DNA of 42,569 bases, taken from positions 1 to 42,569 of the forward strand of contig NZ_AP014812.1 of NCBI RefSeq assembly GCF_002355515.1. Reading direction: 5' to 3'. The DNA comes from Methylorubrum populi (GTDB lineage: Bacteria; Pseudomonadota; Alphaproteobacteria; Rhizobiales; Beijerinckiaceae). This document shows, piece by piece, positions 8,393 through 39,220 of the stretch. How positions within the stretch are numbered: position 1 is the first letter of the stretch; each line of letters starts with the position of its first letter. A program made the translations under genes and the position numbers. The notes under the pieces are model-generated. The model was not told where the DNA came from and ran no database searches. It saw only the letters and a list, made by a program, of their open reading frames with translations.

Positions 8393-8417
8393 GGATGAGA
8401 CGGATGGAGAACCTGAA

Positions 8418-11030: not shown

Positions 11031-11043
11031 ACCCGCTGATGAA

Positions 11044-11077: not shown

Positions 11078-11078
11078 T

Positions 11079-13174: not shown

Positions 13175-13212
13175 TAAAATCGTATTTATGTATATACGGC
13201 GATACGATTTTA
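13175..13212. promoter_or_regulatory. Operator-like inverted repeat upstream of the coupling protein gene
   Basis: Perfect 11-bp arms TAAAATCGTAT (13175-13185) and ATACGATTTTA (13202-13212) are separated by 16 bases. The arms contain the AATCGTA core of the repeat before parA and repA. It lies about 175 bases before the coupling-protein ATG and probably controls transfer gene expression. Confidence 0.5.
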
Positions 13213-13385
13213 TGGATCGTGCTATTGTGTTTGACGGCGTAAGGGTGCTGTGCCGTCTCCGTCTGTGGGAGCAGAGGATCCGATCTTACCGTGCTCGATG
13301 TGGTCAACAGACGCTTCATCAGCGCGTTCAAGTTTGGGCTGCTCCATATCCGGTTTGCTCAAGCGTCCCGCTCTATGGCAGGGCG

Positions 13386-16582: not shown

Positions 16583-17059
16583 ATGTTTTCGACATTACAC
16601 ATAGCTGAAAAGACGACCGGCTCTCGCGGGTCTCTCGCGTTGCTGCGCTGGGCGCTGGTGGTCATCTTTCTCTGGTTCGGTTGCATGAAATTCACGAGCT
16701 ATGAAGCGATGGGCATCGCGCCATTGATGAAGAACAGTCCGATCATGAGCTGGATTCCGGCCGTTTTTGGGGTGCAGGGTGGAAGCTATTTTATAGGCAC
16801 CGTCGAGCTCGCGACGGCCGCTGCGCTGATTATCGGTGCTTTCAACAAGACGGCCTCCGCTCTCGGCGCGGCGATGTCATGCCTGACTTATGCCGTGACA
16901 CTGACGTTTTTCCTGAGCACGCCTGGCGTCGCCGAGCCGACCGCTGGCGGGTTCCCGGCGATTTCGGCCGGAACCGGACAGTTCCTGTTGAAGGACCTGG
17001 TGCTTCTTGCGGCATCAGCGTGCCTTCTACTTGCGTCCATACGGACAGCAGACGCGTGA
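16583..17059 (+). CDS. DUF417-family inner-membrane protein (RclC/YkgB-like)
   Basis: 158 aa with four predicted membrane helices: LLRWALVVIFLWFGCMKF, IGTVELATAAALIIGAF, AMSCLTYAVTLTFFLSTPG and LLKDLVLLAASACLLLAS. The signatures KFTSYEAMGIAPLMKNSP and LSTPGVAEPTAGGFPAIS are those of DUF417, which includes E. coli RclC, a protein needed for resistance to reactive chlorine species. The biochemical activity of the family is not settled. As the only non-transposition function in this Tn3 element besides MarR, it is the selectable cargo. Confidence 0.85.
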   Translation: MFSTLHIAEKTTGSRGSLALLRWALVVIFLWFGCMKFTSYEAMGIAPLMKNSPIMSWIPAVFGVQGGSYFIGTVELATAAALIIGAFNKTASALGAAMSCLTYAVTLTFFLSTPGVAEPTAGGFPAISAGTGQFLLKDLVLLAASACLLLASIRTADA

Positions 17060-17192: not shown

Positions 17193-17777
17193 ATGCTGGT
17201 CGGATATATGCGGGTGTCAACGACCGATGACCGCCAAACGGTCGATCTCCAGCGGGACGCGCTCGTCGCAACCGGGGTCGATCATCGGCATCTCCATACC
17301 GACAAGGCATCCGGCGCGCGCGACGACCGACCAGGCCTGAAAGCCTGCCTCGACTATCTGAACGCGGGCGACACACTGATCGTGTGGAAGCTCGACCGGC
17401 TCGGACGCTCGCTGCCGCACCTGCTGACGATCGTCACCGATCTGAAGGCGCGCGGCATCGCGTTCCGGTCGCTGACCGAGCAGATGGATACGACCACGCC
17501 GCACGGCGAATTGCTGTTCTCGCTGTTCGGTGCATTGGCACAATATGAGCGTGCGCTCACGCGCGAACGGGTGATGGCGGGACTGGCTGCTGCCAAACGC
17601 CGGGGACGCCAAGGTGGCCGCCCGCCGATGATCGACGCCGAAACGCTCGAGCGGATCACCGCCGCGCTGGATGGCGGGGCCAGCAAGGCGTCCGTCTGCC
17701 GGACCTTCAAGGTGCCGCGTTCGACCCTTCTCGGCACGCTTGCCCGGATCGGCTGGACCGCACCGGCCAAGGTCTAA
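17193..17777 (+). CDS. tnpR: Tn3-family resolvase TnpR
   Basis: 194 aa from ATG 17193; a TTG three codons earlier is less likely. The catalytic domain starts MLVGYMRVSTTDD with Ser9, then LIVWKLDRLGRSLPHL and ERALTRERVMAGLAAA. The C-terminal HTH is short (ASVCRTFKVPRSTLLGTL). It resolves cointegrates at the res site directly upstream. The transposase gene starts 4 bases after its stop. Confidence 0.93.
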   Translation: MLVGYMRVSTTDDRQTVDLQRDALVATGVDHRHLHTDKASGARDDRPGLKACLDYLNAGDTLIVWKLDRLGRSLPHLLTIVTDLKARGIAFRSLTEQMDTTTPHGELLFSLFGALAQYERALTRERVMAGLAAAKRRGRQGGRPPMIDAETLERITAALDGGASKASVCRTFKVPRSTLLGTLARIGWTAPAKV

Positions 17778-17781
17778 GCCG

Positions 17782-22942: not shown

Positions 22943-23227
22943 ATGTCCGCCGCCCAGAGCCTGACGCTGCCTCTCACACCCGAACTCGCCGCGCGCCTTG
23001 CCGCCGCCACCGAGCGCACCGGCCTGCCGGCGGAGGAACTCGCGCTGCGGGCGCTCGTCGACCATCTCGACGGGATCACCGCCTACGGCCGGCTCGGCGC
23101 GGAGATGGCCTTCATCAAGGACCGGCTGGCTGAGCTCGCCGGGATCGTTGGCGACGCGCTGGCCGAGCCGACACCGGCGGCGATGGCCGAGATCTGCCGC
23201 TACCGGGCGAAGGCCTCGTCCCCGTGA
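22943..23227 (+). CDS. Small RHH-like relaxosome accessory protein
   Basis: 94 aa. The pattern LTLPLTPELAARLAAATERT then GLPAEELALRALVDHLD is the beta-helix-helix of a ribbon-helix-helix DNA-binding protein. It overlaps the relaxase start by 4 bases, so the two are translationally coupled. By position it should bind oriT and help the relaxase, like TrwA or MobC proteins; an antitoxin is the alternative, but no toxin is adjacent. Confidence 0.65.
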   Translation: MSAAQSLTLPLTPELAARLAAATERTGLPAEELALRALVDHLDGITAYGRLGAEMAFIKDRLAELAGIVGDALAEPTPAAMAEICRYRAKASSP

Positions 23228-26106
23228 CTGCCTCGCTGCACGCGCTCGGCTGCGGAGCGTCGGCGGGTGCGTACTACACCAACGACCCCTACCGCGAGAC
23301 GTACAACCGGGACGAGTACTACGTCCAGGACGGCGGTGGCCTCTGGTGGACGCAGGGCGCTGCGATCGTGCGCCACGGCGCCCCGGTCGTGCTGGAGAGC
23401 TTCCGCGATCTCTGTGCCGGATTGAACCCGGCGACGGGCCAGCCGCTGGTGCGCGGGGCCGGGGTGGGACACCGGGCGGGCTGGGATCTGACCCTGACTG
23501 CACCCAAAACCGTTTCGCTGCTCTGGGCTGCGGGTGATCCCGAGGCACGGGCGCAGCTGGAGGCCATCCACGCCGCGGCCGTCGAGGAGGCGCTCGGCTT
23601 CCTGTGCGCGGAGGAACTGGTGGAGGTCCGGCTCGGGGCCGGCGGCCACCGGCGCGAGCCGCCGGCCGGCCTAATGGTCGGGCGCTTCGATCACTACACC
23701 TCGCGGGCCGGTGACCCGAACTGCCACACGCACTGCGTTCTGATCAACGCCGCCGTGTCTAAGGACAAAAAGCCTAGAACTCTGGAGCCGGAGCGGCTCT
23801 ACCAGTGGCAGCTCGTGGTCGGCAGCGCCTACCGGGCCGCGCTGGCCGAGCGCCTGGTGGGCGAGCTCGGCCTGTGCTTGCGTCCAGCGGGCCAGGGGCA
23901 GTTCGAGATCGCCGGCATCCCGGAGGCGGTGATCGAGGCCTTCTCCAAGCGCTCGGTCGCGATCGAGGCGCAGGTCGGCGGTGATCGGGCAGCCGCCTCG
24001 GGGGCGCAGAAGGAGGTGGCGGCGCTCGCCACCCGCGGCGCCAAGGCCGATCTGCCGACCGGGCCCGCGCTGGAGGCGCGCTGGCACGCCGAGTTCACCG
24101 CGCTCGCGCACGATCCTTGGGCCGCGGTGCGCGCAGCGTCGCGGGAGCTGGTCCGGGAGCATGTGATTGAGCGCGGGCCGGAGCCCGCCTTCGATCCGCC
24201 CGAGATCGCCGGTGCGACGCCAGTGGCACGCGCAGCCTCCGCCCTGTTCCGGCACGAGAACGTGCTCACGCGCCGAAACCTGATCGAGCGGGCGCTCGAC
24301 GAGGCGGCGCTGCAGGGGCTTGGGCTCGCGGCGGTGCGGGCCGAGTTGGCAGAGTTGGAGCAGTCCGGCCAGCTCGTGCGCCTGGTGCAGGCAGAGCGGG
24401 AGGCCTGCTGGACGACACCGGGGATCGCTGCCGCCGAGTCCGCGCTGCTGCGCGCCGCCGACCGGCCCGCGGCCGAGCGCATGGTCCCGGCACCGGTCGT
24501 GGACGCGGTGCTGGCCAGCGCCGCCCCGCTCGCCGAAGAGCAGAAGGCAGCCCTGCGCCACGTAAGCGGTGCGGCCGCCGTCAGCGTGCTGGAGGCGGGG
24601 GCCGGCACGGGCAAGACCACGACGGCGAAGGCGCTGGTCGAGATCGCGCGGTATTCCGGGCTTCAGGTGATCGGCCTGGCGCCGAGCTGGGTCGCGGCCG
24701 ACGAGCTCGGCGCCTCGACCGGGATCCCGGCGCAGGCGATCGCCAAGTGGCGCCACGACCAGGCGCGCGAGGCAGACGCAAGCCTAGGCCCCGACACCCT
24801 GGTGCTGGTCGACGAGGCCGGGATGGTCGGCACGAAGGATCTCTGCGCGATCCTGGCGGCGGCGGAGGCGGGCGGGGCCCGCGTGGTCTTGATGGGCGAC
24901 CGGCGCCAGCTCGCCTCGGTGGCGGGGGCGAGCGCCCTGCGGGCGGTGAACGACGTGCTCGGCCGCCACGCCACGCTATCCGAGGTGCGGCGCCAGGCTG
25001 TGCCCTGGCAGCGGGCGGCGTCGGTGCTGATGGCGCGCGGCGAGGTCGAGGCGGGCTTGCGTGCCTACGCCCGGTACGGCTGCATCGAGCTCGTCGCCGG
25101 CGCCCCGGCCGTGCAGGCGCGGGCGCTTGCCCTCTGGTCCGAGGCACGGGCGCGGCACGGGGCGGACGCGGTGCTGATGGTGACGCGACGCAATCGCGAC
25201 GCGACCGAGCTGAACCGCGGCGCCCGTGCCCTGCTGCGGGCTGAGGGTGATCTGACCGGACCAGACGTCGAGGTCGTGGCGCGCGACCGCGAGAACCGGC
25301 CGCGGGCGCTGAGCTTGGCGGTCGGAGACCGCGTCCGCTTCGGCGAGAGCCTGAGTCAGCACGGCATCCGCAACGGCACGCGGGCGACGGTCGAGGCGAT
25401 CGGGGCGGACGCGGGCGGGGCGCTGCGCCTGCGGGTGCGGCTGGAGGACGGCCGGCGGGTTGAGGATGCCTATACCAGGTTCGTGCCGGTGCGGGCGCGC
25501 CGAACGGCGCAGGTGCAGCCGTCGCCGCGGATCAGCCTCGGCTATGCTGGGACCGCCTACGCGGTGCAGGGCCGAACCTGTGCGGCGACGATCTACTGCG
25601 GGTTTACGGCCGGCGATGCGCGCGAACTCTATGTGGGGCTGACGCGCCACCGGCAGGAAGCGCATCTGGTAATCGAGCGCGAGCGCCTGGAGGCGGCGGT
25701 GCGGGTGCGCCAAGTGGATCCGCATCTCACACCGAGCACCGCCGAGCTGCAGGAGCGGCTGTTCGTCGAAGCGCGCCGCTACAGTGAGAAGGTGAACGTG
25801 GTCGACCATGTCGAGGACAGGGCGGCGTTCGTGCGCAGCGGCGCGATCCCGCCGCCCCGTGCCGAGATGCGCCTCGATTTGCAGAGCGGCTTTGCGGCGG
25901 CGCGAGCCCTGCGCCGGGTGTTGCAGGAGATGAGCGAAGTGCCACGGCAGGCACTCCGACAGCTGGCTCGGGGCGTACGCCGCGCGGAGCGCCAGGTCTC
26001 GCCCCGTATTCTTCGGCTGGTCGAAGACATCCGGGGAACTCTGCCGGACGTCGTTACGCGTGAGCGGTCGGGCCGGTCCCACTCAGGACCGGATTACGGA
26101 CGTTGA
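23224..26106 (+). CDS. MOBF relaxase-helicase (TrwC/TraA type)
   Basis: 960 aa. The N-terminal relaxase domain has several candidate nucleophile tyrosines (Tyr17, Tyr18, Tyr23, Tyr27, Tyr32, Tyr33). Its three-histidine metal site is in DHYTSRAGDPNCHTHCVLIN (His157, His168, His170). The SF1 helicase half has Walker A GAGTGKTTTA (Lys464), motif II LVLVDEAGMVG, LMGDRRQLASV, and a C-terminal SLGYAGTAYAVQGRT. It nicks oriT, stays bound to the 5' end and unwinds the transferred strand. The extreme N-terminus is unusual: most TrwC-like proteins start nearer the tyrosine motif with a shorter lead. Otherwise complete. Confidence 0.93.
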   Translation: MTASLHALGCGASAGAYYTNDPYRETYNRDEYYVQDGGGLWWTQGAAIVRHGAPVVLESFRDLCAGLNPATGQPLVRGAGVGHRAGWDLTLTAPKTVSLLWAAGDPEARAQLEAIHAAAVEEALGFLCAEELVEVRLGAGGHRREPPAGLMVGRFDHYTSRAGDPNCHTHCVLINAAVSKDKKPRTLEPERLYQWQLVVGSAYRAALAERLVGELGLCLRPAGQGQFEIAGIPEAVIEAFSKRSVAIEAQVGGDRAAASGAQKEVAALATRGAKADLPTGPALEARWHAEFTALAHDPWAAVRAASRELVREHVIERGPEPAFDPPEIAGATPVARAASALFRHENVLTRRNLIERALDEAALQGLGLAAVRAELAELEQSGQLVRLVQAEREACWTTPGIAAAESALLRAADRPAAERMVPAPVVDAVLASAAPLAEEQKAALRHVSGAAAVSVLEAGAGTGKTTTAKALVEIARYSGLQVIGLAPSWVAADELGASTGIPAQAIAKWRHDQAREADASLGPDTLVLVDEAGMVGTKDLCAILAAAEAGGARVVLMGDRRQLASVAGASALRAVNDVLGRHATLSEVRRQAVPWQRAASVLMARGEVEAGLRAYARYGCIELVAGAPAVQARALALWSEARARHGADAVLMVTRRNRDATELNRGARALLRAEGDLTGPDVEVVARDRENRPRALSLAVGDRVRFGESLSQHGIRNGTRATVEAIGADAGGALRLRVRLEDGRRVEDAYTRFVPVRARRTAQVQPSPRISLGYAGTAYAVQGRTCAATIYCGFTAGDARELYVGLTRHRQEAHLVIERERLEAAVRVRQVDPHLTPSTAELQERLFVEARRYSEKVNVVDHVEDRAAFVRSGAIPPPRAEMRLDLQSGFAAARALRRVLQEMSEVPRQALRQLARGVRRAERQVSPRILRLVEDIRGTLPDVVTRERSGRSHSGPDYGR

Positions 26107-27854: not shown

Positions 27855-29828
27855 TCACGCTACAGATGTCAGTTTGTGCTGGTCAGCCTGCCGGAACTGC
27901 ACGTTCGCGCTCGACCCTGAGCGGTGCCGCAATTCACAGCTGAACCGGCGCCCGTCTTCGTCAACGACCAGATCAAACCGGTCGGGAAGGCGGATCTGCT
28001 CCTTCACATGAAGCCGTGCGCCACCATTCGAAATGTCGCGGATCGAGCATGCGATCACGCTCCCGCCTGGCACGTGGATGCTGGCTGGTAGCAGGACTCG
28101 GATCCGACGCTCGGCGCGACGCTCCTCCATGCCGACGGTCCAATCGTCCAAGCTGGTGCTGATGCTGGACACACCGCTGGCCGCATGTCGCATGCTCGAC
28201 AGGATGTCGCCCGTCGCCCGAGCTTGCTCGTCCATCGAAGCGCTTACACCATCGACGTGCGAGCTGATCGCGCCGATCGCCGCGGTGATCGAGGCGAGCG
28301 TCGTCGCCACCTCGGCCGATACGGTCTGCATGCCGACGACCTCCCCACTGATCCGGGCAGTGGCGGCTGCGGCTTGGCCGGCCAACTCCTTCACCTCAGT
28401 GGCAACGACCGCGAAGCCTCTACCGGCCGCACCCGCCCTGGCAGCCTCGATTGTGGCATTCAAGGCCAGTAAATTGATTTGCTGAGCGATGCCTGCGATT
28501 GCCGTCGCGACGCCACCCATCGCGGTAGCGGCAGCCTGCAAGCGCTCCGTCGCCGCGTCGGCTTCGCTCGTGCGGCCGTGAATGTCGTCGACAACCGTCT
28601 TCGACTGCGCCATGCCATGCGAGATTTCTTGGGCAGCCGCGTTCATGGTCTCAGCTGCATTGGTGATCGCTTGAACGTTGTCGAGCGTCCGCTCGGCGGC
28701 CTCGACCGCAAATGAGCGCGCTTCCATGTTCGCGGTGACGTCGGTCGCATACTTGACGATCTTAGTCAGCTGGCCGGTCGGACCGAAGATCGGGTTGTAG
28801 CTGGCCTGGATCCAGACCGGGCGGCTGCCCTTCCCAAAGCGCTGGAACATTCCGCCAAGAAACTCGCCGGTTCGCAGGCGATCCCAGAACGCCGCATATT
28901 CCGGCGACTGCGCGTAGCCGGGCTCGACGAACATGGCGTGATGTCGCCCGCAAATCTCCTCGATCCGGTAGCCGAGTGCACCGAGGAAGTTCGCGTTGGC
29001 GTCGAGCACCGTTCCGTCGGGGGCGAATTGGATCACCGCCTGTGATCGGTTGACGGCCGCCAGTTGCCCCGCCGCGTCCGTGGCCAGCAGCTTTTGCACG
29101 GTGACGTCAACGGCGAACTTGACCACCTTCACCGGCACGCCGTCCCGGTCGCGGATCGGGTTGTAGGTGGCTTGGATCCAAAATTCGCGGCCACCCTTGG
29201 CTATGCGGCGGAACTCGCCAGAGGCGAACTCGCCGCGTGAGAGCTTTGCCCAAAATTCACGATAAGCCGTACTCGCCTGCTCATCTGCATCTACGAACAG
29301 GCTGTGATGGCGGCCTTGGATCTCATCGAGCCGATAGCCAACCGCATTGAGGAAGTTCTGGTTGGCGACTAAGATAGTCCCGTCGAGGGTGAACTCGATC
29401 ACGGCCTGCGAACGATGCAGGGCGTCGAGCTGACCGTCGTGGTCGATGTGGCGCAGAACCTGCTCGGTGATGTCGGTGGCGAACTTGACGATGCGAGTGA
29501 CCCGTCCTGCACGGTCCAGCACAGGGTTGTACGTCGCCTGGATCCAGACAACTCGATCGTCCTTAGCGATCCGCTTGAACTCACGGGTCTGCGCTTCGCC
29601 GCGACGCAGGGCTGCCCAGAAGGCGCGGTACTCGTCGCTGTCGCGCTCGGCAGCGGGAACAAACACGGTGTGGTGCTGCCCCTTCACCTCTGCGAGGTTG
29701 TAGCCCATCAGGATCAGAAAGAGACTATTGGCCGTTACCACCGTGCCATCAGGCAAAAACTCGATCCGCGCTCGGGACTTATCGATCGCCGCCATGAGGG
29801 CACGAAGCTCAGCGTCGAACAGCGGCAC
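27855..29828 (-). CDS. Soluble PAS-PAS-PAS methyl-accepting receptor with C-terminal PilZ domain
   Basis: 657 aa, no membrane segment or signal peptide. Three tandem PAS/PAC repeats cover about residues 10-370. Each has FxPDGTV/FTLDGTI, a GY-x-EIxGxHH-xxFV loop and [10 protein letters not shown]. The methyl-accepting signalling domain follows ([20 protein letters not shown], then [17 protein letters not shown]). The last about 90 residues are a PilZ domain with ERRAERRIR and DISNGGARL, the RxxxR and (D/N)xSxxG motifs that bind cyclic di-GMP. It should signal to a CheA array from the cytoplasm, probably sensing redox or oxygen via flavin or heme, with c-di-GMP input. No che genes are adjacent. 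Confidence 0.9.
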
Positions 29829-30052
29829 CAGACGTTTCCTTACCCAGCTTGCTCGAAGGCAACTTCACCCTCCAACGGATTTGTGCACGATAGAGTTGAG
29901 CGAACGTTACTAATCAAATCCTGAGGGCTTATCGACACGATCTCACAATCACAGCGCGCGTCGACGCACTCATGAGTTGCGCTTGAAATGGCCCCTGCGA
30001 GAGTAGCGCTTCAATGCTTTGGACTATCGCCTGTGATTAGGCGTGGAATAAG

Positions 30053-31741
30053 GGTTCATCCGCACTTTCGGTGCTGCGGGTCTGTTGTCCGATCAAGCTT
30101 TGCCGGTCTCAGTTCACGCGGCATGGAGGACGCGCTGGCGTAGGAGATCGAATCCGGCTCTGCCGTACATGCTGCGCTTGATCAGTTTCAGGCGGTTGAC
30201 CTGCCCCTCGACAGGACCGTTGCTCCAGGGTTCGACGATGGCGGCGCGCACGGCTGGCTCGTCCCGCCGGAGCCCTGTGACGAAGCCGCCGAGATCGGTC
30301 GCGGCTGCAGCGTCCAGCCAGGGCGTCAGTCCGGTGGGATCGTTTTGGCGCAAAAGATCGGCGAAGGCGCGGATAACCTCGGCTGCTTGGCTCAGCTTCG
30401 GCGCGGCGCTGCAGAGCGCTTCGGTGAAGGCGCGATCCTCCGGCGACAGCGCAGCCAGGTCGCCAGTGAGCCATCGGGTGATGCGGCGCGTCGAGGGGAT
30501 CCGAGTGGACGGTGGTCGAGCCGGTGCCCCGCGCTTCCGACGCGCAGCCCAGCGCCGGACGATATCGTAGCCACCCGTGAAGCCGTGTGCGTGCAACTCC
30601 CGGTAAAGCGCGGTGGCGCTGTGCTGGCCTTCCTGCCAGCGGGCCTCAACGAAGGGGAGATGGCGGTCGAGCCGGCTCGAACCCGGTGCGCGACGGTAGG
30701 GCACGAACCGGCCTGCCCGCACCCAGCGGCGCACGGCGTTGCGGGACGCGCCGAGACGGCGAGCGATCTCCTTGGTCGGCAGACCTTCGCCGTGGAGGCA
30801 CAGGGCCGCCTCACAGCGATCACGTCGTCGGCTCGTCACCTCCGGCTTGGCTGCGGTCTCCCTCAGGCCAGGGGAGGCCGAGGGATCCTTCTCGGCGCGG
30901 TGGGCCACGCTCCGGATCTGGGGCTGGTGTCGTTCGACCACGCCGCGCAGCGCCTCGGATGCGTTGACGAGCAGGTGCCAGCGATCCGCGACCTGCGTCG
31001 CCGTCGGCGCTCCCGTACGCGCAGCCTCGGCATAGGGCCCCGAGCGGTCACGGCTGACGACAGTCACGCTCGGATGGGCAGCGAGCCAATCCCGCACCGG
31101 TGCCGCAGAGCGGCCGGGCAACAGGTCGATGACGCGCCGCCGCTCCAAGTCGCACACGATGGTGCCGTAGGACCGGCCGCGTCGCCACGCCCAATCGTCG
31201 ATGCCCACCACCCGCGGCGGCGGAGACGGTACGGTCCCGCGACGACGGATCAAGCGCAGGACGGTGTCGCCGCTGATAGGCATGGCCAGCCGCCGCGACA
31301 ACCTTGCGCCGGCCTCACCACCCAGCACCATGCCGATGTCGGTCTGCGCCTCAGCCAACCGGTCGCTGCGGCGCGCCTTGCGCGTGCCCAGCCCCGGCAC
31401 GCGTTCGGCGAAGATCCGCCCCGGGCAATGGCCGCAGCGGAAGCGGCGGACCTGCACCCGCCATGTCACCGACCGGTCCTGCCAGGGCAGGTCCTTGAAC
31501 GTCCGCCAATACCTGCTGTGCACCCGCGTCGAAGCACGCCCGCAGACCCGACAGGACGCCTGGGCCGCCGTGGTCCGGGCAGTGATCAGCAACCCCGTTT
31601 TATCCAGCGTCAGGTCATCGACGTGCAGGCCGTCCGGGACCGACGGCATCGACGGGTTCGAGATCGGCATCGCGCTGCCCTCGGGCCACCATGCGAATCA
31701 ACGCCCAAACCACCGCTCCGCACCGAAAGTGCGGATGAACC
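30053..31741 (-). mobile_element. ISL3-family insertion sequence, about 1.69 kb
   Basis: Inverted repeats GGTTCATCCGCACTTTCGG start at 30053 and, on the opposite strand, at 31741. They enclose a single full-length transposase. An 8-bp target duplication, usual for the family, is not visible in the flanks (GGAATAAG versus AAGGTTCA), so the site may have been altered. It sits right after the end of the DyP peroxidase gene. Bases 29829-30052 to its left show no gene. Confidence 0.85.
30114..31670 (-). CDS. ISL3-family transposase
   Basis: 518 aa. An N-terminal zinc finger (SCRVCGRASTRVHSRYWR, FRCGHCPGRIF) is followed by the DDE_Tnp_ISL3 core: VVGIDDWAWRRGRSYGTIVC (Asp), VVSRDRSGPYAEAARTGAP (Asp) and near the end VEPWSNGPVEGQVNRLKLIK (Glu). 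An inserted HTH region (LPTKEIARRLGASRNAVRRW) is typical of the longer members. Intact. Confidence 0.93.
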   Translation of the reverse strand: MPISNPSMPSVPDGLHVDDLTLDKTGLLITARTTAAQASCRVCGRASTRVHSRYWRTFKDLPWQDRSVTWRVQVRRFRCGHCPGRIFAERVPGLGTRKARRSDRLAEAQTDIGMVLGGEAGARLSRRLAMPISGDTVLRLIRRRGTVPSPPPRVVGIDDWAWRRGRSYGTIVCDLERRRVIDLLPGRSAAPVRDWLAAHPSVTVVSRDRSGPYAEAARTGAPTATQVADRWHLLVNASEALRGVVERHQPQIRSVAHRAEKDPSASPGLRETAAKPEVTSRRRDRCEAALCLHGEGLPTKEIARRLGASRNAVRRWVRAGRFVPYRRAPGSSRLDRHLPFVEARWQEGQHSATALYRELHAHGFTGGYDIVRRWAARRKRGAPARPPSTRIPSTRRITRWLTGDLAALSPEDRAFTEALCSAAPKLSQAAEVIRAFADLLRQNDPTGLTPWLDAAAATDLGGFVTGLRRDEPAVRAAIVEPWSNGPVEGQVNRLKLIKRSMYGRAGFDLLRQRVLHAA

Positions 31742-31778
31742 AAGGTTCAACGCTGTTTGACAAATCGGACCAAGTATA

Positions 31779-33170
31779 TCAGTCGTGTTTGGCAGCGTTG
31801 CGCCATCCGGCTTTGGCTAGCCAGTTCAGCGCCGAGAGGCTCGGCATGAACAGATACTCGCCGCCTTTCATGATGTTGAAGGTCTGCACGCCATCGATGC
31901 GCCTGCGTGCTGGCGTCTGCGGGATCGTGAAGCGTCGTTCCCCCTCGTGCAGACCAACGACCGGATCCCGCTCCTCCCCGAGGTCGATGAAGTTGCCGCG
32001 GTTGATCCATTCCTGCTGCATGAACTCGATCGTGTCGTAGGCACGCGCGCTGATGAAGATGAAGAAGATGCCGCGCTCGCTCCTAGCATCGTCCTCCGGC
32101 GTCACCTCCTCCGAGTAGACGGGCCCGAAGGTGCTGGAGCGGCGGATGATGCGATGGATGTTGACATCGGTGAGCAGCGTCAGCTCGGCGTCGCGCGGGT
32201 TGAGCCGGCGCATGTGACAGCCGAGCGGGACGCGGCGGCCCTTAGGGTCGTCCGCGTAGGCGAAGTTGTTGTTCCGGCGCGGATCGGCGCCGAGGTCGGG
32301 ATTGTCCTCGTCGGGCGCGAGGGCGAGCGGGGCGCCCGAGCGCCAGCGCCCGAACATCTTGGCGGCGAGGCGCTCGCGTTCTTCCAAGGTGTCGCTATGA
32401 GCCTTGAGGAAGGCGTTGAAGCAGCCGACGCGGCTCTGGTACTTGCGCAGCACCACGAAGGTGCCGTTCCGCCCCAAGGCAGGCGGCTCCGGCATGGCGA
32501 GCGGCACGCCGGTCTCGCTCGGGTAGCCGAGGAGGAACTCGCCGGCCTTGATCGGCCGCGCCTCGCCGGGCAACGGGGCCACGCCGCTGCCCTCCACCGC
32601 CGGCTGCGAGATCGAGTCGCGGAAGCCGAACGGGTTCTTCGCCCCCTCAGGCGCGCCGAAGCGATGCTCGCCGAGTAGCGTCACCCCCGCAGTACGGTCG
32701 AGCTCCGCATGGGCAGTCGCGAGCGCCTTGTCGAGGGCGGTATCGTCGACCGCGTAGATGGTCAGCGCGAGGTGGCATTGGCCGGGCGTGAACACCGCGT
32801 CCCAGTTCTCCGGCGCGTTCGGGCCCTGATCGCGCAGCTGCGGCGCGCGTGCGGCCATGCCCTGCTGGAAGGGCAGCGGGAACGTCTTGAGCTGCTCCTC
32901 GGGCAGACCGAGGGCCTGGAGCCCGTCGTAGCTGAGGGCAACGCCGATCCAGTGGTCGAGCTCATCGGTCCAGGTATCAGCCGATGCGATATGCGGCGCG
33001 AGGCGTCCGAGCAAATTGCGCGCACCCTCCGCGTCGTCGAAGTGGAGCATGGCATGGACGCCGACATACGGCTCGGGTCGGCTGCGCAGGATCAGCGCCT
33101 GGATGTCGTCGAGCTCCAGCGAGACGGTCTCCCGGCGGAAGCGCGATGCGAGTCGTTCGATGATCGACAT
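31779..33170 (-). CDS. DyP-type heme peroxidase
   Basis: 463 aa, no signal peptide. The DyP signature is present as NPFGFRDSISQPAVEG (distal Asp; Ser replaces the usual Gly of GxxDG) and VPLGCHMRRLNPRD (proximal heme-ligand His and following Arg). DyP peroxidases oxidise phenolics and dyes with hydrogen peroxide. It is the last gene of the P450 operon, starting 3 bases after the preceding stop. The operon context suggests it handles peroxide or a product of the P450/catalase-like pair. Confidence 0.9.
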   Translation of the reverse strand: MSIIERLASRFRRETVSLELDDIQALILRSRPEPYVGVHAMLHFDDAEGARNLLGRLAPHIASADTWTDELDHWIGVALSYDGLQALGLPEEQLKTFPLPFQQGMAARAPQLRDQGPNAPENWDAVFTPGQCHLALTIYAVDDTALDKALATAHAELDRTAGVTLLGEHRFGAPEGAKNPFGFRDSISQPAVEGSGVAPLPGEARPIKAGEFLLGYPSETGVPLAMPEPPALGRNGTFVVLRKYQSRVGCFNAFLKAHSDTLEERERLAAKMFGRWRSGAPLALAPDEDNPDLGADPRRNNNFAYADDPKGRRVPLGCHMRRLNPRDAELTLLTDVNIHRIIRRSSTFGPVYSEEVTPEDDARSERGIFFIFISARAYDTIEFMQQEWINRGNFIDLGEERDPVVGLHEGERRFTIPQTPARRRIDGVQTFNIMKGGEYLFMPSLSALNWLAKAGWRNAAKHD

Positions 33171-33173
33171 GCC

Positions 33174-33785
33174 TCAGCCCACCTTGTCCAGGAACTCGTT
33201 GAAGGCCCGCTCCAGGCGCTGGAGCCGGCGCACGTCGACGACCGTGACCTGCGGGTTGGCCACGAACCAGCCGGCAGCGGTGACCTGGTGCCCGGCGATG
33301 AAGTCCTTGACCTTGGGGCTCTTGATCCCCGGCCAGCCCTCGACCGACTGGAACAGCAGGTCCATCAGGTCCGGGATCTTGGTGGCGAAGTCGTTGATGT
33401 ACGTGTCCCAGTCGCCGTCATAGGTGGTGGCGAACAGGATGCGCGTGTCGTCGTCGAAGAAGGCGAAACGCATGTCGTGGAGCGTGCCGACCTTCTGCGC
33501 GCCATCGAAGTTGCCGTTGACCAGGCCGAAGATGCGGCGCAGCCGCTCGGCGCCTCCCGGCTTCAGCTTGGCGATCGCCGTCAGCTCGGAAACGTTGCCG
33601 GACTGCGCGCCAACCCGCCCGGCCGAGCCCGCGGAGCCCTTCAGGTCGGGATTGTGCCGGGTCATCATCTGTTCGAGCGCGAGCTTGGCGAGCTGCGGCG
33701 CGTCGCCCGCGACCTCCTCGATCCGCCGGCGTATGGCTTGCAGGCGGGTCTCGTCGATCTGCGGGGTGTCGTTACTGTCGGTCAT
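33174..33785 (-). CDS. Unknown protein of the P450/DyP operon
   Basis: 203 aa from ATG 33785. After a helical N-terminus (LQAIRRRIEEVAGDAPQLAK) it has VGTLHDMRFAFFDDDTRILF, then TTYDGDWDTYINDFATKIPD. This looks like a ferredoxin-like beta-alpha domain also seen next to or fused with catalase- and peroxidase-type proteins. No cofactor motif is visible. It lies 37 bases after the catalase-like gene and 3 before dyP. It may be a scaffold or accessory to one of the heme proteins; that is inference. Confidence 0.6.
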   Translation of the reverse strand: MTDSNDTPQIDETRLQAIRRRIEEVAGDAPQLAKLALEQMMTRHNPDLKGSAGSAGRVGAQSGNVSELTAIAKLKPGGAERLRRIFGLVNGNFDGAQKVGTLHDMRFAFFDDDTRILFATTYDGDWDTYINDFATKIPDLMDLLFQSVEGWPGIKSPKVKDFIAGHQVTAAGWFVANPQVTVVDVRRLQRLERAFNEFLDKVG

Positions 33786-33822
33786 GGATAACTCCTCTGC
33801 GTCCGCGGTTCGGAAGCGCCCG

Positions 33823-34947
33823 TCAGTCAGGGATCTGTTCGATCGACGTCGGCTCGACGCGCGGCCGGGCATTGAGCGCGTGTCGACGGGCGCTCGACCG
33901 TTCGTAGGCGGCGATGCGCACCCGCATGATCGAGCCGAGCGGCCTGTGCTCCTGGATGCCATGCCAAGGATTGAACGAGAGCACGTCATCACCGTAGACG
34001 CGCCGGGCCGGAGAGTAAGCATCCTGCGGCGGGAGCCGCAGGGTGGCGACCGGCTGGTGCGGTGAGATATCGTCCGGCCAGAGCACCGAGGCGTCCTCGA
34101 CCGGCATCGCCGCGAGATCGGTGCAGAGCTGGGCACGGAGCTGATACTCGGCCCCTTCTGTCCGGAAGTGCTCGACGACGAGATCGCGCATAGTCCCGTC
34201 GTCGACCGGGCCGATTTCCTTGCCGGTCAGCGCCCGCACGTTGGCGGACAACGGCGCGGCGCTGATCTTGGCGACGTGGTCGCCGAAGCGGAGCGCCGCC
34301 ATGGAGTGGTAGGTCTCGCCGAGCAGGTGGGCGTTGTCCCGGGCCAACCCGCGCAGGGTCGCGCCGGGCGTGAGACCGACCGCTTCGGCCGCCGACTCGA
34401 TCCCGCGCGCGGCGCCGGCGAGCGCCCGCTGCAGGAAGGCGGGGTTCCGGGCGTTCTTCTCCAGGAGACCGACGAGCTGCCTGTAGGCCTGGATGGTACC
34501 GAAGCTGAGGACGGGGATGTTGACGAGCAGGAAGTCCTGGTTGCCTCCCGCGTCCTCAGGCAGGAGGCGTTCACCCTCGACCCCGAGCACCTTGATCGCC
34601 ATGCCGCGCGGGGCCGGGACCGTGTCGGAGTGGATGTCGCCGGGCGCGGAGGACAGGCGCACGACGACGGGGTAGACGGCGGGTCGTGCGAAGATCCCCT
34701 GCTGCAGGTGTGCCGGCAGCCCGTCAGATATGACGAGCTCGCCCGTGAGGATGCCGTGGCTCTTGGCGTGGGCGTCGCGGACCGCGTGACGATGCCGCTC
34801 GAACGCCACATGGTTCGAGCGCGCCATGACGTCGAGGATTTCTGCCGTCAGGGCCGCTTCATCGGGTTGTTGAACCTCGACATCCGGCGTGTAGCGGAGA
34901 TAGGGCCTTCCGGCGTCGCGGTGAGAATTCCCGTCGAGCGTACTCAT
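33823..34947 (-). CDS. Catalase-family heme protein
   Basis: 374 aa from ATG 34947, overlapping the P450 stop by 4 bases (ATGA). The fold is recognisable from AVRDAHAKSHGILTGELVIS (region of the distal His), FARPAVYPVVVRLSSAPGD, PAPRGMAIKVLGVEGE, QDFLLVNIPV, and the tail LSFNPWHGIQEHRPLGSIMR. It is shorter than monofunctional catalases and lacks an obvious R-x3-Y heme-Tyr motif of the canonical kind. It belongs to the small catalase-related group, some of which are peroxidases or fatty-acid hydroperoxide enzymes. Coupling to a P450 suggests substrate oxidation rather than plain catalase activity. Confidence 0.8.
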   Translation of the reverse strand: MSTLDGNSHRDAGRPYLRYTPDVEVQQPDEAALTAEILDVMARSNHVAFERHRHAVRDAHAKSHGILTGELVISDGLPAHLQQGIFARPAVYPVVVRLSSAPGDIHSDTVPAPRGMAIKVLGVEGERLLPEDAGGNQDFLLVNIPVLSFGTIQAYRQLVGLLEKNARNPAFLQRALAGAARGIESAAEAVGLTPGATLRGLARDNAHLLGETYHSMAALRFGDHVAKISAAPLSANVRALTGKEIGPVDDGTMRDLVVEHFRTEGAEYQLRAQLCTDLAAMPVEDASVLWPDDISPHQPVATLRLPPQDAYSPARRVYGDDVLSFNPWHGIQEHRPLGSIMRVRIAAYERSSARRHALNARPRVEPTSIEQIPD

Positions 34948-36206
34948 GCCGCGAGCTCCGCCGATACGCCCGGTGCGACGGCGTCGATGGCCAAAAGCAG
35001 GTGCCGTGGACCGCGCAGCGAGGCGCCGGGGCGGTATGGCGGTGGGTCGGCGAGAAGCCGCGGCGCCCGCAGCCGCTGGGCCAGCGCGACGAGTGCGACC
35101 TCCGCCTCGATCCGCGCCAGCGGAGCTCCCACGCAGTAGTGCAGGCTGCCGCCGAACCCGAAGTGCTGGTTGTTCGCGCGGTCGGGATCGAAGCGGTCCG
35201 GATCGGCGAAGCGCAGCGGGTCGCGGCTGCCGGACGCGAGCAGGAGTACTACCGGCGCCCCTTCCGGGATCGTGGTTCCCCCGATCGCGATGTCGGCGCG
35301 CGCCAGCCGCGTGCGATAGTGGACGGGCGGCTCGTAGCGCAGCAGCTCCTCGATCAGCCGCGGCGCGATCGCCGGCTCCCGGCGCAGGCGTTCCAGGTGC
35401 TCGGGGAAGCGGAGCAGCGTCAGGACGCCGTTGGTGATCAGGTTCACGGTCGTCTCGTGACCCGCGACCAGGAGCAGGACGGCCGTGGCCACGAGGTCGT
35501 GGTCGTTCATGCGCTCGCCGTCGTGCCCGGTCGCGAGCCCGGAGAGCAGGTCGTCCTGCGGCGCCTGGCGCTTCTCCTTGATCAATCCCCGCAGGTAGTC
35601 GGAGATCGCCGTGAACGCTTCCTCGGTCCTGCCGGCGTTCTCGCGGTCCGTACGCCGGTCCGGTTCGAGGGCGGTGGCGAGCTGCGTCGCCCATCCCTGG
35701 AACCGGGGCTCGTCCTCGCGCGGGACGCCGAGCAGCTCGCAAATCACTGTAACCGGCAGGGGGTAGGAGAAATCGTCCACCAGATCGAGGTCGGTCCGGT
35801 CCCGCAGCCCGTCGAGAAGGGCGTGGGTGAGCTGCTCCGCCTTGCGGTGCATTGCCCGCACGCGGGCAGGTGCGAACTCGCGCATGACCTGCCGGCGCAG
35901 GAGATCGTGATCCGGCGGATCGCGGAAGATGAAGGGACGATGGCGCGCGGTGATCCGGCTTCGGATCGGGCGGACGAACAGGTCGCGCAGGGGATGCCCG
36001 GTCCAGCGGAACAGAGGCGGATCGGGCAGATCCTCCGAGCTGATGCGCGGATCGTACAGGAGGCGGTAGAGTTCCGCGTGGGTGCTCACGACGTAACTGC
36101 CGTCGTCTTGGCGGCTCACGGGCGTCCGGCGCATCTCGGCGTAGAGCGGGTACGGGTCGGCGCGGTTGGCCGGATCGAGGATCTGCTGGAACAGCGTGCC
36201 GTTCAC
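34944..36206 (-). CDS. Cytochrome P450 (bacterial class I type)
   Basis: 420 aa from GTG 36206 (GGAGCTCACC upstream); a longer frame to 36356 lacks a good start. I-helix LVAGHETTVN carries the oxygen-binding AGxxT, K-helix EELLRYE carries ExxR, and the heme loop FGGSLHYCVGAPLAR has Cys358. It is soluble, with no membrane anchor. Electrons should come from the ferredoxin and reductase encoded just upstream in the same operon. The substrate is not predictable from sequence; the catalase-like and DyP partners point to oxidative chemistry on a lipid or aromatic compound. Confidence 0.93.
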   Translation of the reverse strand: MNGTLFQQILDPANRADPYPLYAEMRRTPVSRQDDGSYVVSTHAELYRLLYDPRISSEDLPDPPLFRWTGHPLRDLFVRPIRSRITARHRPFIFRDPPDHDLLRRQVMREFAPARVRAMHRKAEQLTHALLDGLRDRTDLDLVDDFSYPLPVTVICELLGVPREDEPRFQGWATQLATALEPDRRTDRENAGRTEEAFTAISDYLRGLIKEKRQAPQDDLLSGLATGHDGERMNDHDLVATAVLLLVAGHETTVNLITNGVLTLLRFPEHLERLRREPAIAPRLIEELLRYEPPVHYRTRLARADIAIGGTTIPEGAPVVLLLASGSRDPLRFADPDRFDPDRANNQHFGFGGSLHYCVGAPLARIEAEVALVALAQRLRAPRLLADPPPYRPGASLRGPRHLLLAIDAVAPGVSAELAA

Positions 36207-36241
36207 GGTGAGCTCCTGTCGGACGGTGGTGCGGGATGCGG

Positions 36242-37528
36242 TTAGGGCACGGTCTGGGCCAGGGGTCGAGGCCGGATATCGGCTTGGTCGAGGGCGCCGA
36301 CGATCGGTGGGAAGGGAGCCCCCTCTGTCACCGCGGCTCGGTAGGCGGGCAGCCAACGGGCGCTGTCTACGGAGACAGCGGCCACGGTTCGCCCCTGCGC
36401 GCCGTACACGCCGATGAACCGGCGATCCCGCAACGAACCCTGGACGACCGCGAATTGGTCGGCCCCGGCCGGCAGGCCGACGAGCTTGATGTTGAGACCG
36501 AATTGCTGCGACCAGAAGTCCGGCAGGTGGTCGTAGGAGACCAGCCCCGCTTCACCGGCGGCCATGTTCCGGGCTGCCGTCTCGGCTTGAGCGACCGCGT
36601 TGCCCCAGTGCTCGACGGCGAGGTGGCGGCCGCCGTAGATGGCGCTCGGCCAGTGAGCAATATCGCCGGCCGCGAAGACATCCGGCACAACTGCCCGGGT
36701 GGTGCTGAGGACGCGGCAATGGGCGTCGACGCGCACGCCTTTGGGCGAAACCTCCAAGCCCGCACCGGCCAGCCACTCGGTGTTGCGCAGGGCGCCGAGG
36801 GCGGCGACGACGCAATCCGCCTCGATCCGCTGGCCGGTGCGCAGGATGGCCGCGACGACCCGGCTATCCGCATCGGCTTGAAATCGCGCGACTTCCGTCT
36901 CCAGGCGGAGGTCCACGCCGCAGTCGCGGATCACGTCCCGCATGAAAGCGGCCGTGACGGAACCCAGGGCATGAGCCAACGGGAGCGCACCGCGCACCGC
37001 CAGGGTCACGTCGAGGCCGAGATCGCGGCAACACGACGCGATCTCACAGCCGATAAACCCGCCACCGATGATGAGCACGCGGCGCGGTTTCCAGGCGAGG
37101 CCGCGTGCGAGATGCTCAGCGTCCGCGTGGCTGCGGAGCGTGTACACGTTTGAGGAAGCTGCTTCCGCACCGTTCGGCCACGGACGTGCCCGAGTCCCGG
37201 TCGCGATGAGCAACCGGTCGTATACGATCTGCGTGCCGTCCGAGAGGTAGATACGATGTGCGAGCGTATCGAGCTCCAATGCACCGACCCCGAGGCGGAA
37301 CGTGGCATCCAGATCGGCCCGTTGCGGCAGGGAGGTGTCCGCGCCGTACAGGCCGCGGAGCACCTGCTTCGACAGCGGCGGCCGATCGTAGGGCGACTCG
37401 TGCTCGTCACCGATCAGGATGATCCTGCCTCCGTAGCCCACGTCACGCAGTGCGTGCGCCGCGGACAGGCCCGCGAGCGAGGCGCCGACGATGACGATCT
37501 GGCGAGGAGCTTCGGTGGGCGCTGTCAT
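36242..37528 (-). CDS. FAD-dependent NAD(P)H-ferredoxin reductase
   Basis: 428 aa. An N-terminal FAD-binding GxGxxG-like motif (IVIVGASLAGLSAAHALRDV), LLIATGTRARPWP, the NAD-binding IIGGGFIGCEIASCCRDLG and the FAD site VFAAGDIAHWP are all present. Family is putidaredoxin/rhodocoxin-reductase type. It overlaps the ferredoxin gene by 4 bases and ends 35 bases before the P450. It passes electrons from NAD(P)H to the ferredoxin. Confidence 0.93.
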   Translation of the reverse strand: MTAPTEAPRQIVIVGASLAGLSAAHALRDVGYGGRIILIGDEHESPYDRPPLSKQVLRGLYGADTSLPQRADLDATFRLGVGALELDTLAHRIYLSDGTQIVYDRLLIATGTRARPWPNGAEAASSNVYTLRSHADAEHLARGLAWKPRRVLIIGGGFIGCEIASCCRDLGLDVTLAVRGALPLAHALGSVTAAFMRDVIRDCGVDLRLETEVARFQADADSRVVAAILRTGQRIEADCVVAALGALRNTEWLAGAGLEVSPKGVRVDAHCRVLSTTRAVVPDVFAAGDIAHWPSAIYGGRHLAVEHWGNAVAQAETAARNMAAGEAGLVSYDHLPDFWSQQFGLNIKLVGLPAGADQFAVVQGSLRDRRFIGVYGAQGRTVAAVSVDSARWLPAYRAAVTEGAPFPPIVGALDQADIRPRPLAQTVP

Positions 37529-37752
37529 TGGTCGCCCGCTTTCTGCGGCATAGGGACTGGAATGTCGCTCGTCGCAGTAATGGCACGTACCGGGCAGGCC
37601 TGCACCGCGCGCTCAATCTCGGCTCGGGCGGCTTCGTCGGGCGCCGTGTCGTAGACCAACGCTTCTGCACCATGCAGGGCGAAGTGGTCCGGAGCGGCGT
37701 AGATGCACTGCGCGTAAGCTTGGCAGCGGTTGAGGTCGACGACGACCTTCAT
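37525..37752 (-). CDS. Ferredoxin of the P450 type (probable 3Fe-4S)
   Basis: 75 aa from ATG 37752; a longer frame begins at 37794. The cluster pattern is CQAYAQC then, some 40 residues later, CPVRAI: three cysteines, with Tyr where a fourth ligand or His may be. This is the C-x2-X-x2-C...CP group that serves bacterial P450s, often binding 3Fe-4S. Translational coupling to the reductase makes the electron-transfer pair clear. Confidence 0.88.
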   Translation of the reverse strand: MKVVVDLNRCQAYAQCIYAAPDHFALHGAEALVYDTAPDEAARAEIERAVQACPVRAITATSDIPVPMPQKAGDQ

Positions 37753-37814
37753 GGATGACACTCCGTCGAAGGGGGAAAGCGCCGGTAGCAGCAATCACTG
37801 GAGGACGCGGAGCG

Positions 37815-38078
37815 TCAGTCGTGCGACCTCCCGGCGGAGGATGACGCGCTCGTCCCCTCATCGAACACGGCACCGCAGCGGGCACTCAACTGCTCGCGGT
37901 GTTGATGCATGCAGGCGATGATCGCCGGACGGTTGGGCACGTTCTCCGCACACAGGCGCAGGACGTCGCTGCGACACGCCAAGGTCGCTTCCGTGATACT
38001 TGTCTCGGCGGCAGCGCCGTGGAGACCGCTACCAACGACAAGGGAAAGGAATAAGATTGGGAGGGTCAAACGCAACAT
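37815..38078 (-). CDS. Small secreted cysteine-rich-repeat protein
   Basis: 87 aa from ATG 38078. The signal peptide (LTLPILFLSLVVGSGLHGAAA) is cleaved near AAA-ET. The mature part, ACRSDVLRLCAENVPNR then ACMHQHREQLSARCGAVF, fits the bacterial Cys-rich repeat pattern CxxDxxxLC...CxxxHxxxLSxxC, with two disulfides likely. It is the first gene of the minus-strand P450 operon, 62 bases before the ferredoxin. A periplasmic role is expected; its link to the oxidative enzymes is unknown. Confidence 0.7.
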   Translation of the reverse strand: MLRLTLPILFLSLVVGSGLHGAAAETSITEATLACRSDVLRLCAENVPNRPAIIACMHQHREQLSARCGAVFDEGTSASSSAGRSHD

Positions 38079-38115
38079 GATGCGGCTCTCTGGATGCGCC
38101 CCGTTGGAGAACCAT

Positions 38116-38149
38116 AAAGGAAATAATAGGTTCCTTTTCAAGTAGGAAC
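38116..38149. promoter_or_regulatory. TetR operator candidate
   Basis: Overlapping dyads AAAGGAA (38116-38122) / TTCCTTT (38131-38137) and GTTCCT (38130-38135) / AGGAAC (38144-38149) occupy the 89-base gap between the divergent TetR gene and the P450 operon. Confidence 0.55.
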
Positions 38150-38167
38150 GTCCCGGGGAGGTATGCA

Positions 38168-38836
38168 GTGACGACAAGCCAGAAGGATGCGTCGCCGTCG
38201 GCGTCGAGGAAGCGTGCGCTGAGCCCCGGACGCCCGCGCGCGGCGACAATCCAGGCACGTCAGGATCGGCTGATGGACATCGTCACTGCCGAGTTTCTGA
38301 CATACGGCTATGAGGGGGCAAACATCGCGCGTGTAGCCCGCACCGCAGGAGTTTCGCCCAAGACGATCTACGCGCGCTACGCCACTAAAGACGAGTTGCT
38401 GCTGGCAGTCGTGGTTCACCTAACGGAAGCCTCGCGCGAAGGACTGGCCCAGGAGCTTACGGATGGCTCAATCAGCCCCGAGCAAGGTTTGACGACCTTT
38501 GCCCTGACCACCGCCTACCATTGGACGTCGGAACGCGAGTTCGGACTCTACAGGTTGGTCATCACGGAAGCCGGGCGCTTCCCCCACCTCGTAACGCTTT
38601 ATAGAGAAAGCACCGACGCGTTCCGTGAGGTCGTGACGACGTATCTCACCGATCAAATCGCTCGACGTGTGCTCGTGATCAAAGATGTCGGGACCGCCGT
38701 TCAGCTATTTGTGTCCGTGACGACAGGCCAGATCAGAGAGCGGATGCTTCTAGGTGAGCGTCCTTCGTCTATCGAAATCGAAGCTCAGGTGAAAGAAGGT
38801 GTTCGAATGTTCCTAGCTTGGTGCAAAAGCAAATAA
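38168..38836 (+). CDS. TetR-family regulator of the P450 operon
   Basis: 222 aa from GTG 38168 after GGGGAGG. A basic N-terminal extension of about 30 residues precedes the TetR HTH (IVTAEFLTYGYEGANIARVA, then AGVSPKTIYARYATKDELL). The ligand-binding C-terminal domain resembles TetR_C type (SEREFGLYRLVITEAGRFP). It is divergent from the seven-gene operon and shares an 89-base control region with it. It probably represses the operon until a substrate of the P450 or an oxidised product binds. Confidence 0.88.
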   Translation: MTTSQKDASPSASRKRALSPGRPRAATIQARQDRLMDIVTAEFLTYGYEGANIARVARTAGVSPKTIYARYATKDELLLAVVVHLTEASREGLAQELTDGSISPEQGLTTFALTTAYHWTSEREFGLYRLVITEAGRFPHLVTLYRESTDAFREVVTTYLTDQIARRVLVIKDVGTAVQLFVSVTTGQIRERMLLGERPSSIEIEAQVKEGVRMFLAWCKSK

Positions 38837-39220
38837 TCGTATCCGTTAAATATCGGAAAAAATCTTCTACAAAAATTATATATATCTTTGATGGGTGTTA
38901 GGAGCAGCTGCCAGAGATTGTTGTCTGAAGGCGCATTTATAGCGGACAGATTGTTCCGGCTTCTCTCTGTGAGCTGACCGGCCAGGCCGAATTCTAGCTG
39001 CGCTGTTCCACATCGCTTGCGCTATTGGAACGCAACGATAGGTAGCGCCGCCTGCTATGTGTCCAGAAAACGACCGTTTTCCAACCACTTAAATGCGTGA
39101 AGAAATTGTGTGCAAAAATCAAATTCCATGAATTGTGGCACTTATTGCCAGGCCGCAATTAAATCTTGTGAAAAATTGGTAGCCAATAAAATTGTAACAG
39201 TGACCGTTCCTTGCCCGGAT
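38837..39220. other. AT-rich gene-free region with a recombinase-site-like motif
   Basis: No gene is supported. At 39066-39081 GAAAACG-AC-CGTTTTC is a perfect dyad. Its context, TGTCCAGAAAACGACCGTTT, matches the sequence before the serine recombinase at 1094-1113 in 18 of 20 positions. The region is markedly AT-rich compared with the rest of the window. Confidence 0.4.

Follow-up and report, generated by a model that had tools for sequence, protein, structure and literature searches.

A 42,569-nucleotide contig of Methylorubrum populi (NZ_AP014812.1; the window, which is the entire contig C4 of a 5.94-Mb, six-contig genome) carries a compact block of eight genes that, judged by its sequence, is a cassette of two modules, with a cytochrome P450 set upstream and, downstream, a triad of genes encoding a catalase-related heme protein, a member of an unnamed family of 203-amino-acid (aa) proteins (P203), and a DyP peroxidase. 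The catalase-like, P203, and DyP genes are a conserved triad and represent one of the two modules joined here. This triad is apparently widespread yet undescribed; no description of the triad or of the seven-gene combination was found among the titles and abstract openings of open-access PMC papers. We propose, with a probability of roughly 0.45, that the two-module cassette carries out peroxide-driven handling of oxidized fatty acids, fed by the P450 in this lineage and with P203 serving as the partner of DyP.

Seven of the eight genes are located on the minus strand. In order, they encode a small Cys-rich protein (37815–38078; four Cys and a signal-peptide-like start, judged by eye; no Pfam or NCBIfam match), a ferredoxin (37525–37752; PF13370) with three cluster Cys (10, 16, and 53), a FAD-dependent ferredoxin reductase (36242–37528; PF07992 and PF14759), a cytochrome P450 (34944–36206; PF00067, 98.7 bits) with a GTG start after AGGAG, the catalase-related heme protein (33823–34947; 374 aa), P203 (33174–33785), and a class C/V-type DyP in which GFRDS replaces the GXXDG fingerprint (31779–33170). 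The eighth gene, encoding a TetR regulator with an AefR-like C-terminal domain (38168–38836, plus strand; PF00440 and PF14246), is divergent. Two pairs of minus-strand genes overlap (37525/37528 and 34944/34947), and the remaining gaps measure 3, 37, 35, and 62 bases. The original prediction for this stretch had described the seven minus-strand genes, their order, overlaps, and gaps, and the divergent TetR gene, and the rechecked coordinates agree throughout; the dyad that it placed between TetR and the operon is also present (AAAGGAA-N8-TTCCTTT, 38116–38137). Its further proposal, one operon-like system in which three heme enzymes and a redox chain may act in one pathway, stands in part: the unit is compact and recurs as an eight-gene block in three replicons, but the seven genes do not make up a single conserved system.

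Conservation of the triad

Relatives of P203 were collected from plasmids (36 records, 17 of whose regions were analyzed) and from a scan of one genome per species, in which the best 80 of 167 P203 relatives were kept (genome_contigs loci); this 80-locus set was selected by P203 and is silent on DyP or catalase genes that occur without P203. Gene presence was scored by tblastn of the window proteins, with catalase counted at a query coverage of at least 35%. In all 17 plasmid regions, including those of Nostoc, Streptomyces, Rhodococcus, and Deinococcus, P203 is followed on its own strand by a DyP match (with one annotated gene between the two in the Streptomyces region), and 11 presented a catalase-like match. 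Across the 80 genome loci, P203 was detected in 80, DyP in 80, and the catalase-like gene in 79, with the order catalase–P203–DyP on a single strand in all 79 catalase-positive loci; in the 80th locus (L033), the contig start cuts into the catalase gene and leaves its final 120 residues. Spacing is tight as well: among the 82 loci with all three open reading frames (ORFs) resolved (10 plasmid and 72 genome_contigs), the P203–DyP distance is −1 to +3 nt in 77, and the catalase gene lies 9–60 nt before P203 in 80, the two others (L007 and L025) having it on the other side. Hosts, by record title, include Sphingomonas, Novosphingobium, Paracoccus, Roseomonas, Massilia, Duganella, Nitrincola, Micrococcus, and Arthrobacter, among others. 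Distances among the triad proteins covary (Mantel r 0.93–0.95, n = 72, 0/999 permutations), correlations that show co-inheritance and in part mirror host phylogeny.

The gene-neighborhood check called for by the original prediction thus divides the block: catalase-like, P203, and DyP genes co-occur in 80/80 loci, while a P450 or reductase relative accompanies the triad in 1/80 only (L031, below), on which ground a single conserved seven-gene system was rejected. The joined block is rare and accessory. Within the genus, 2 of 111 genomes contain full-length P203, and nine more have weak partial matches (E 2.7e-7 or worse); across the class, with the own genome counted, P203 was found at E ≤ 1e-20 in 3 of 385 genomes and catalase-like relatives in 9 of 385. 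Three catalase-like paralogues on contig C1 of the own genome (40–42% identity) had no P203 or DyP match within the surrounding stretches of approximately 15 kb.

A few loci present variant arrangements. One (L165 in genome G429, 8376–11554) has three tandem P203 copies, 48–53% identical, directly upstream of DyP, and no catalase-like match within the 19 kb fetched. In a member of the genus (L009 in genome G081, 492–2709), two weak P203-like stretches in one frame directly precede a DyP relative (31%), an arrangement hinting at a deeper P203–DyP link. On a Sinorhizobium and a Bradyrhizobium plasmid (L022 and L023), genes for a c-type cytochrome and a (2Fe-2S) protein follow P203 and DyP; the Sinorhizobium locus additionally contains NIPSNAP, DUF4331, and molybdopterin-domain genes.

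The P450 module and the joined block

The reductase, ferredoxin, and P450 genes are a set that many genomes of the genus share: at E ≤ 1e-80, P450 relatives were found in 102 of 111 genomes, with the main contig of the own genome included. We analyzed 28 short stretches (approximately 1.5 kb on each side) and 18 longer ones (15–19 kb) around such relatives, some of them from the same places; the reductase gene adjoins the P450 gene in every stretch, as does the ferredoxin gene except in one cut stretch (L123), and no triad gene was found in the 18 longer stretches. The window set, with P450, ferredoxin, and ferredoxin reductase encoded together, is of class I, and the nearest solved chain to its P450 is CYP164A2 (3r9b). 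Like other three-component class I systems, it has the three genes side by side; unlike them, its P450 stop overlaps the start of a peroxide triad. The P450 carries the acid-alcohol pair in the I-helix (AGHETT) and the heme loop FGGSLHYCVG with heme Cys 358, Ser standing where the usual heme-loop consensus has Gly. The ferredoxin presents a C-x5-C...CP pattern, which we take to be of the 3Fe-4S type. A CYP152-type peroxygenase was considered for the P450 and rejected, given a score of 28.5 bits against the equivalog cut-off of 600 and the presence of AGHETT; CYP152-type peroxygenases are not known to carry the acid-alcohol pair in the I-helix.

Genome G032 groups relatives of TetR (48%), the Cys-rich protein (48%), P450 (80%), reductase (62%), and ferredoxin (90%), and the 19 kb fetched there contain no triad; TetR and the Cys-rich protein therefore belong with the P450 module, although the Cys-rich gene is placed after the P450 gene in G032, unlike in the window. 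Regulators of the triad were searched for with ten references (the window TetR and nine triad-associated TetRs), counting divergent genes up to 1.5 kb from the catalase start. Such a gene was found in 41 of the 80 loci; 34 had no match, and five had too little upstream sequence. Among the nine triad-associated TetRs, six align mutually over 176–197 residues, the exceptions being L007, L100, and L104. Compared with these nine, the window TetR aligned over 49–98 residues with six and yielded no alignment at E 1e-3 with the other three. The simplest reading is that the triad, lacking a regulator of its own, was added downstream of the P450 genes. The dyad receives modest support as a candidate TetR operator: among 300 shuffled versions of the 89-base intergenic sequence, 9 reached its 7-base arm length, and the arms are intact in the two relatives compared (L002 and L141).

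The joined form was found in three replicons, namely the window plasmid, M. aquaticum pMaq22A_1p, and genome G067. The block (31762–39082) aligns as a single piece of approximately 7.3 kb that ends just beyond the eight genes, with 92.26% identity over 7,327 columns to pMaq22A_1p and 92.30% over 7,288 columns to G067; the closest named match to P203 is its pMaq22A_1p counterpart (97%). When the window is compared with each relative, the ratio of nonsynonymous to synonymous divergence (dN/dS, Nei-Gojobori) lies at 0.05–0.46 in all eight genes, which are therefore not chance ORFs; the block shows signs of purifying selection which, together with its recurrence in three replicons, indicate that it is not an accident of one genome. 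An accidental juxtaposition of two mobile modules, functionally linked by nothing except co-transcription, would agree with the separate occurrence of the P450 set and the triad elsewhere, the insertion sequence that adjoins the block, and the uneven synonymous divergence (dS) among the genes. We judge it very unlikely, however, given that three different replicons retain the joined block, with the dN/dS values above and an unchanged position of the P450–catalase overlap.

A contig filed under a Curvibacter metagenome-assembled genome (L031) was considered as an independent fourth case of the joined form and rejected, since its dS to G067 is 0 in reductase, P450, catalase, P203, and DyP. Its reductase gene is truncated where the contig begins, its DyP match is split into two fragments that are not in the same frame, and its placement in Curvibacter is probably a binning error. 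Around the chromosomal P450 set, five neighboring proteins each from the own genome and from G009 provided no consistent functional hint; seven of these ten had no family match, and some may not be real genes. A reductase–P450 pair (51% and 65%) is also located beside IS6 and Tn3 elements on the 25-kb M. populi plasmid pMPOP01 (L029, 4647–7401), with no triad match within the 8.7 kb fetched.

Triad proteins and proposed function

Against PF00199 the catalase-related protein scores 22.5 bits, below the gathering score of 25, over profile positions 25–125 of 383, and the profile thus does not class it as a monofunctional catalase. Its structure model (pLDDT 77.3) has the fold of a catalase-type heme protein; the best fold matches (ranks 1–2) are 3e4w and 3e4y, the 33-kDa catalase-related protein of M. 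avium paratuberculosis (Foldseek E 3.6e-11 to 3e4w). Among 75 residue rows (the window and 74 of the 80 loci), R57, H60, R97, R344, Y348, and R355 are present in 75 and N136 in 71. By motif and spacing, residues of this set match the heme residues R64, H67, R102, N137, Y353, and R360 given for coral allene oxide synthase (cAOS) in the part of PMC5617202 used here, an equivalence of our own mapping that a hidden Markov model alignment backs in its N-terminal part only. The coral enzyme (1u5u; rank 43), which has a catalase fold, uses a fatty-acid hydroperoxide, and cannot scavenge H2O2 (PMC5617202, in part), and the M. avium protein share with the window protein the predicted fold and the spacing of heme contacts, whereas identity to them is 12–20% over aligned columns and the window protein differs in standing in an operon with DyP and P203. 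The distal Thr of allene oxide synthases and hydroperoxide lyases is absent, Ala 59 occupying in 75/75 rows the position of cAOS Thr 66.

DyP scores above both family cut-offs (TIGR01413, 104.4 versus 100.5 bits; PF21105, 30.2 versus 27.5), and its nearest solved chains (E approximately 1e-170) belong to D. radiodurans DyP (DrDyP), namely 8RE2 and the M190G mutant 8RE3. We compared 77 rows (the window, L007, and 75 of the 80 loci), mapping the pocket through residues named in the portion of PMC10820274 consulted. The distal Asp and Arg and the proximal His (D185, R343, and H319) and the pocket Phe are conserved in all 77, and the pocket Leu is Leu or Ile. The GXXDG fingerprint is incomplete, with Ser in 65, Asn in 6, Ala in 5, Met in 1, and Gly in none of the rows at the fifth position; the window DyP shares Asp, His, Arg, and Phe with DrDyP as well as the missing last Gly (Met in DrDyP, Ser here). 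More remote P203-linked DyPs (L022–L026, L028, and L030) retain this Gly, and that of Nostoc (L027) has Arg. Since L024 and L025 keep Gly despite a nearby catalase-like gene, its loss tracks the catalase–P203–DyP arrangement and the Deinococcus form, not catalase linkage itself.

According to the sections of PMC10820274 drawn on here, DrDyP is inactive at physiological pH, a strong ligand blocking its heme, its authors speculate that interacting proteins, e.g., encapsulin, govern its activity in vivo, and the physiological role and substrates of DyPs are still called unclear. The DrDyP locus resembles the window in having P203 upstream and a catalase-like gene, and differs in that the catalase-like gene is downstream of DyP; neither an operon nor a catalase is mentioned for DrDyP in those sections. 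The P203 gene of D. radiodurans ends one base before the DyP start. The inactivity of DrDyP, the speculation about a partner, and the constant position of P203 before DyP make P203 a testable candidate for the partner that DrDyP would lack. The P203 family matches none of the Pfam or NCBIfam profiles, but it has a strict genetic partner. Its structure model is weak and suggests a possible antibiotic-monooxygenase-type dimeric alpha+beta barrel; DyP and chlorite-dismutase barrels are absent among the 50 fold matches listed for P203, which excludes nothing. No encapsulin shell family was found among the 29 window proteins scanned with family profiles, a scan that included no search aimed at shells.

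General defense against H2O2 or organic peroxides, with the P450 a mere promoter-sharing neighbor, perhaps linked by H2O2 leaking from uncoupled P450 turnover, is a rather unlikely explanation for the triad. A catalase fold and a peroxidase would make the simplest detoxification pair, and all three genes are present on a D. radiodurans plasmid, as well as in many lineages where no lipid reference was matched. However, the catalase-like protein, with its subthreshold Pfam score, is closest in fold to a small catalase-related protein, P203 has no role in a plain H2O2 scheme and is rare in the class, and the closest DyP studied shows no H2O2 binding at pH 7.5 (PMC10820274, in part).

Some neighbors of the triad suggest lipids as substrates. 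At least one of five lipid reference proteins was matched in 39 of the 80 loci, oleate hydratase in 19 (on the opposite strand), and a relative of a 3-hydroxyacyl-CoA-type dehydrogenase in 19, one of these, in L061, matching at 30% and lying at a distance from the triad. The triad of sphingomonads and certain other alphaproteobacteria is located opposite oleate hydratase, this dehydrogenase, and a thioesterase, suggesting that its usual substrates are probably oxidized fatty acids; triad loci of a Sphingomonas group contain a thioesterase and a patatin, and in Deinococcus and Acinetobacter loci a related dehydrogenase occurs in a different gene arrangement. The paired dehydrogenase belongs to the PRK08293 type, and a 286-aa enzyme that carries the annotation 3-hydroxybutyryl-CoA dehydrogenase, likened to it by annotation only, oxidizes 10-hydroxystearate to 10-ketostearate (PMC7101164, in part). 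Of the route to 10-ketostearate through oleate hydratase and a secondary alcohol dehydrogenase, oleate hydratase is encoded opposite this same triad; the window plasmid lacks it and has the P450 module in its place, a replacement that gives a hint of what type of substrate is involved. A single MCRA-family (oleate hydratase) gene is present in the own genome, where it is located on the main contig.

We propose that, in the window lineage, the triad came to lie downstream of the P450 genes, lacks a dedicated TetR, and is co-transcribed with the P450, whose stop overlaps the first start codon of the triad. Electrons from NADH would pass through the reductase and the ferredoxin to the P450, which would hydroxylate a hydrophobic compound, probably of lipid type; with the oxygenated product formed, DyP and the catalase-related protein would use peroxide (an organic or fatty-acid hydroperoxide or H2O2) to oxidize or detoxify it. 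P203, encoded by a gene abutting or overlapping that of DyP, may be an activating or substrate-delivery subunit of DyP, and TetR would sense the inducing compound. Co-transcription, complex formation, substrate, and electron path are all inferred. In a stronger form, which we regard as doubtful, the triad would be a true multi-heme system, probably a complex, in which P203 activates a DyP that would otherwise be inactive at physiological pH, and the three proteins together would oxidize oxygenated fatty acids in a defined reaction driven by peroxide, with interchangeable front ends; if true, these would be oleate hydratase and dehydrogenase in sphingomonads and the P450 with its redox chain in Methylobacterium. 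With its fixed partner gene, its catalase-related gene, and fatty-acid genes as recurring neighbors, this DyP group makes the question of DyP function directly testable.

Alternatively, the block may be a catabolic island for xenobiotics or plant compounds, in which the P450 opens an aromatic or terpenoid molecule, DyP and the catalase-like protein oxidize the products, and the secreted-type protein and TetR are accessory. An AefR-type TetR, a plasmid location, and the aromatic and dye substrates of DyPs would fit such a role, but the DyP relative is active on dye at acid pH only (both points on DyP from PMC10820274, in part). Family profiles identified no dioxygenase or transport gene among the eight block genes, the triad elsewhere is often beside fatty-acid genes, and we consider this explanation unlikely.

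Several observations weigh against the proposed fatty-acid role and two-module cassette. No match to the five lipid references was found in 41 of the 80 loci, and the 19 loci with oleate hydratase, for the most part closely similar copies of a single element, are not independent. Flank genes were also chosen by codon-position GC in 12 loci (automatic ORF clustering was not used because antisense ORFs won in GC-rich DNA), and 20 proteins from 10 loci were scanned; most are non-lipid (ABC-F, a phosphate transporter, a TonB receptor, a peptidase, and others), with one alpha/beta hydrolase, in Duganella. Lipoxygenase had no match in 10 genomes, where the positive control gave no signal either, and P450 family membership leaves the substrate unfixed. 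Six of the 17 plasmid regions have P203–DyP without a catalase-like match, and in Acinetobacter, Deinococcus, and Rhodococcus the catalase-like gene is on the opposite side of DyP. The fingerprint change explains little of the low DyP activity on its own, as restoring Gly in DrDyP (M190G) gave no change in activity (PMC10820274, in part). Finally, dN/dS between L002 and L141 is 0.09–0.64, highest in the 75-codon ferredoxin (0.64), and dS from the window ranges from 0.08–0.10 in the ferredoxin to 0.37–0.39 in DyP; recombination within the block is therefore likely, and the block may be a recombinant mosaic.

Plasmid surroundings

The contig is plasmid-like in content, carrying genes for replication, partition, and conjugation; profile matches identified ParA (10066–10728), an RPA replication initiator (11079–12323), a TraG-type coupling protein (13188–15089), and a TrwC relaxase (23224–26106). 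Genes for lactate permease (PF02652), an FMN-dependent dehydrogenase (PF01070), and a GntR/FCD regulator are divided between the two contig ends (39538–42434 and 115–909), the arrangement to be expected of a circular contig on which a lactate-use operon would span the cut. An ISL3-family insertion sequence (30041–31753; transposase at 30114–31670) with 34-nt inverted repeats, 85% complementary, adjoins the 3′ end of the block. A Tn3 transposase was also matched by profile (17671–20760), close to a DUF417 protein (16583–17059); a DUF417 gene is near Tn3 on pMPOP01 too. Positions 27855–29828 encode a chemotaxis-type protein with three PAS stretches, an MCP signaling domain, and a C-terminal PilZ domain.

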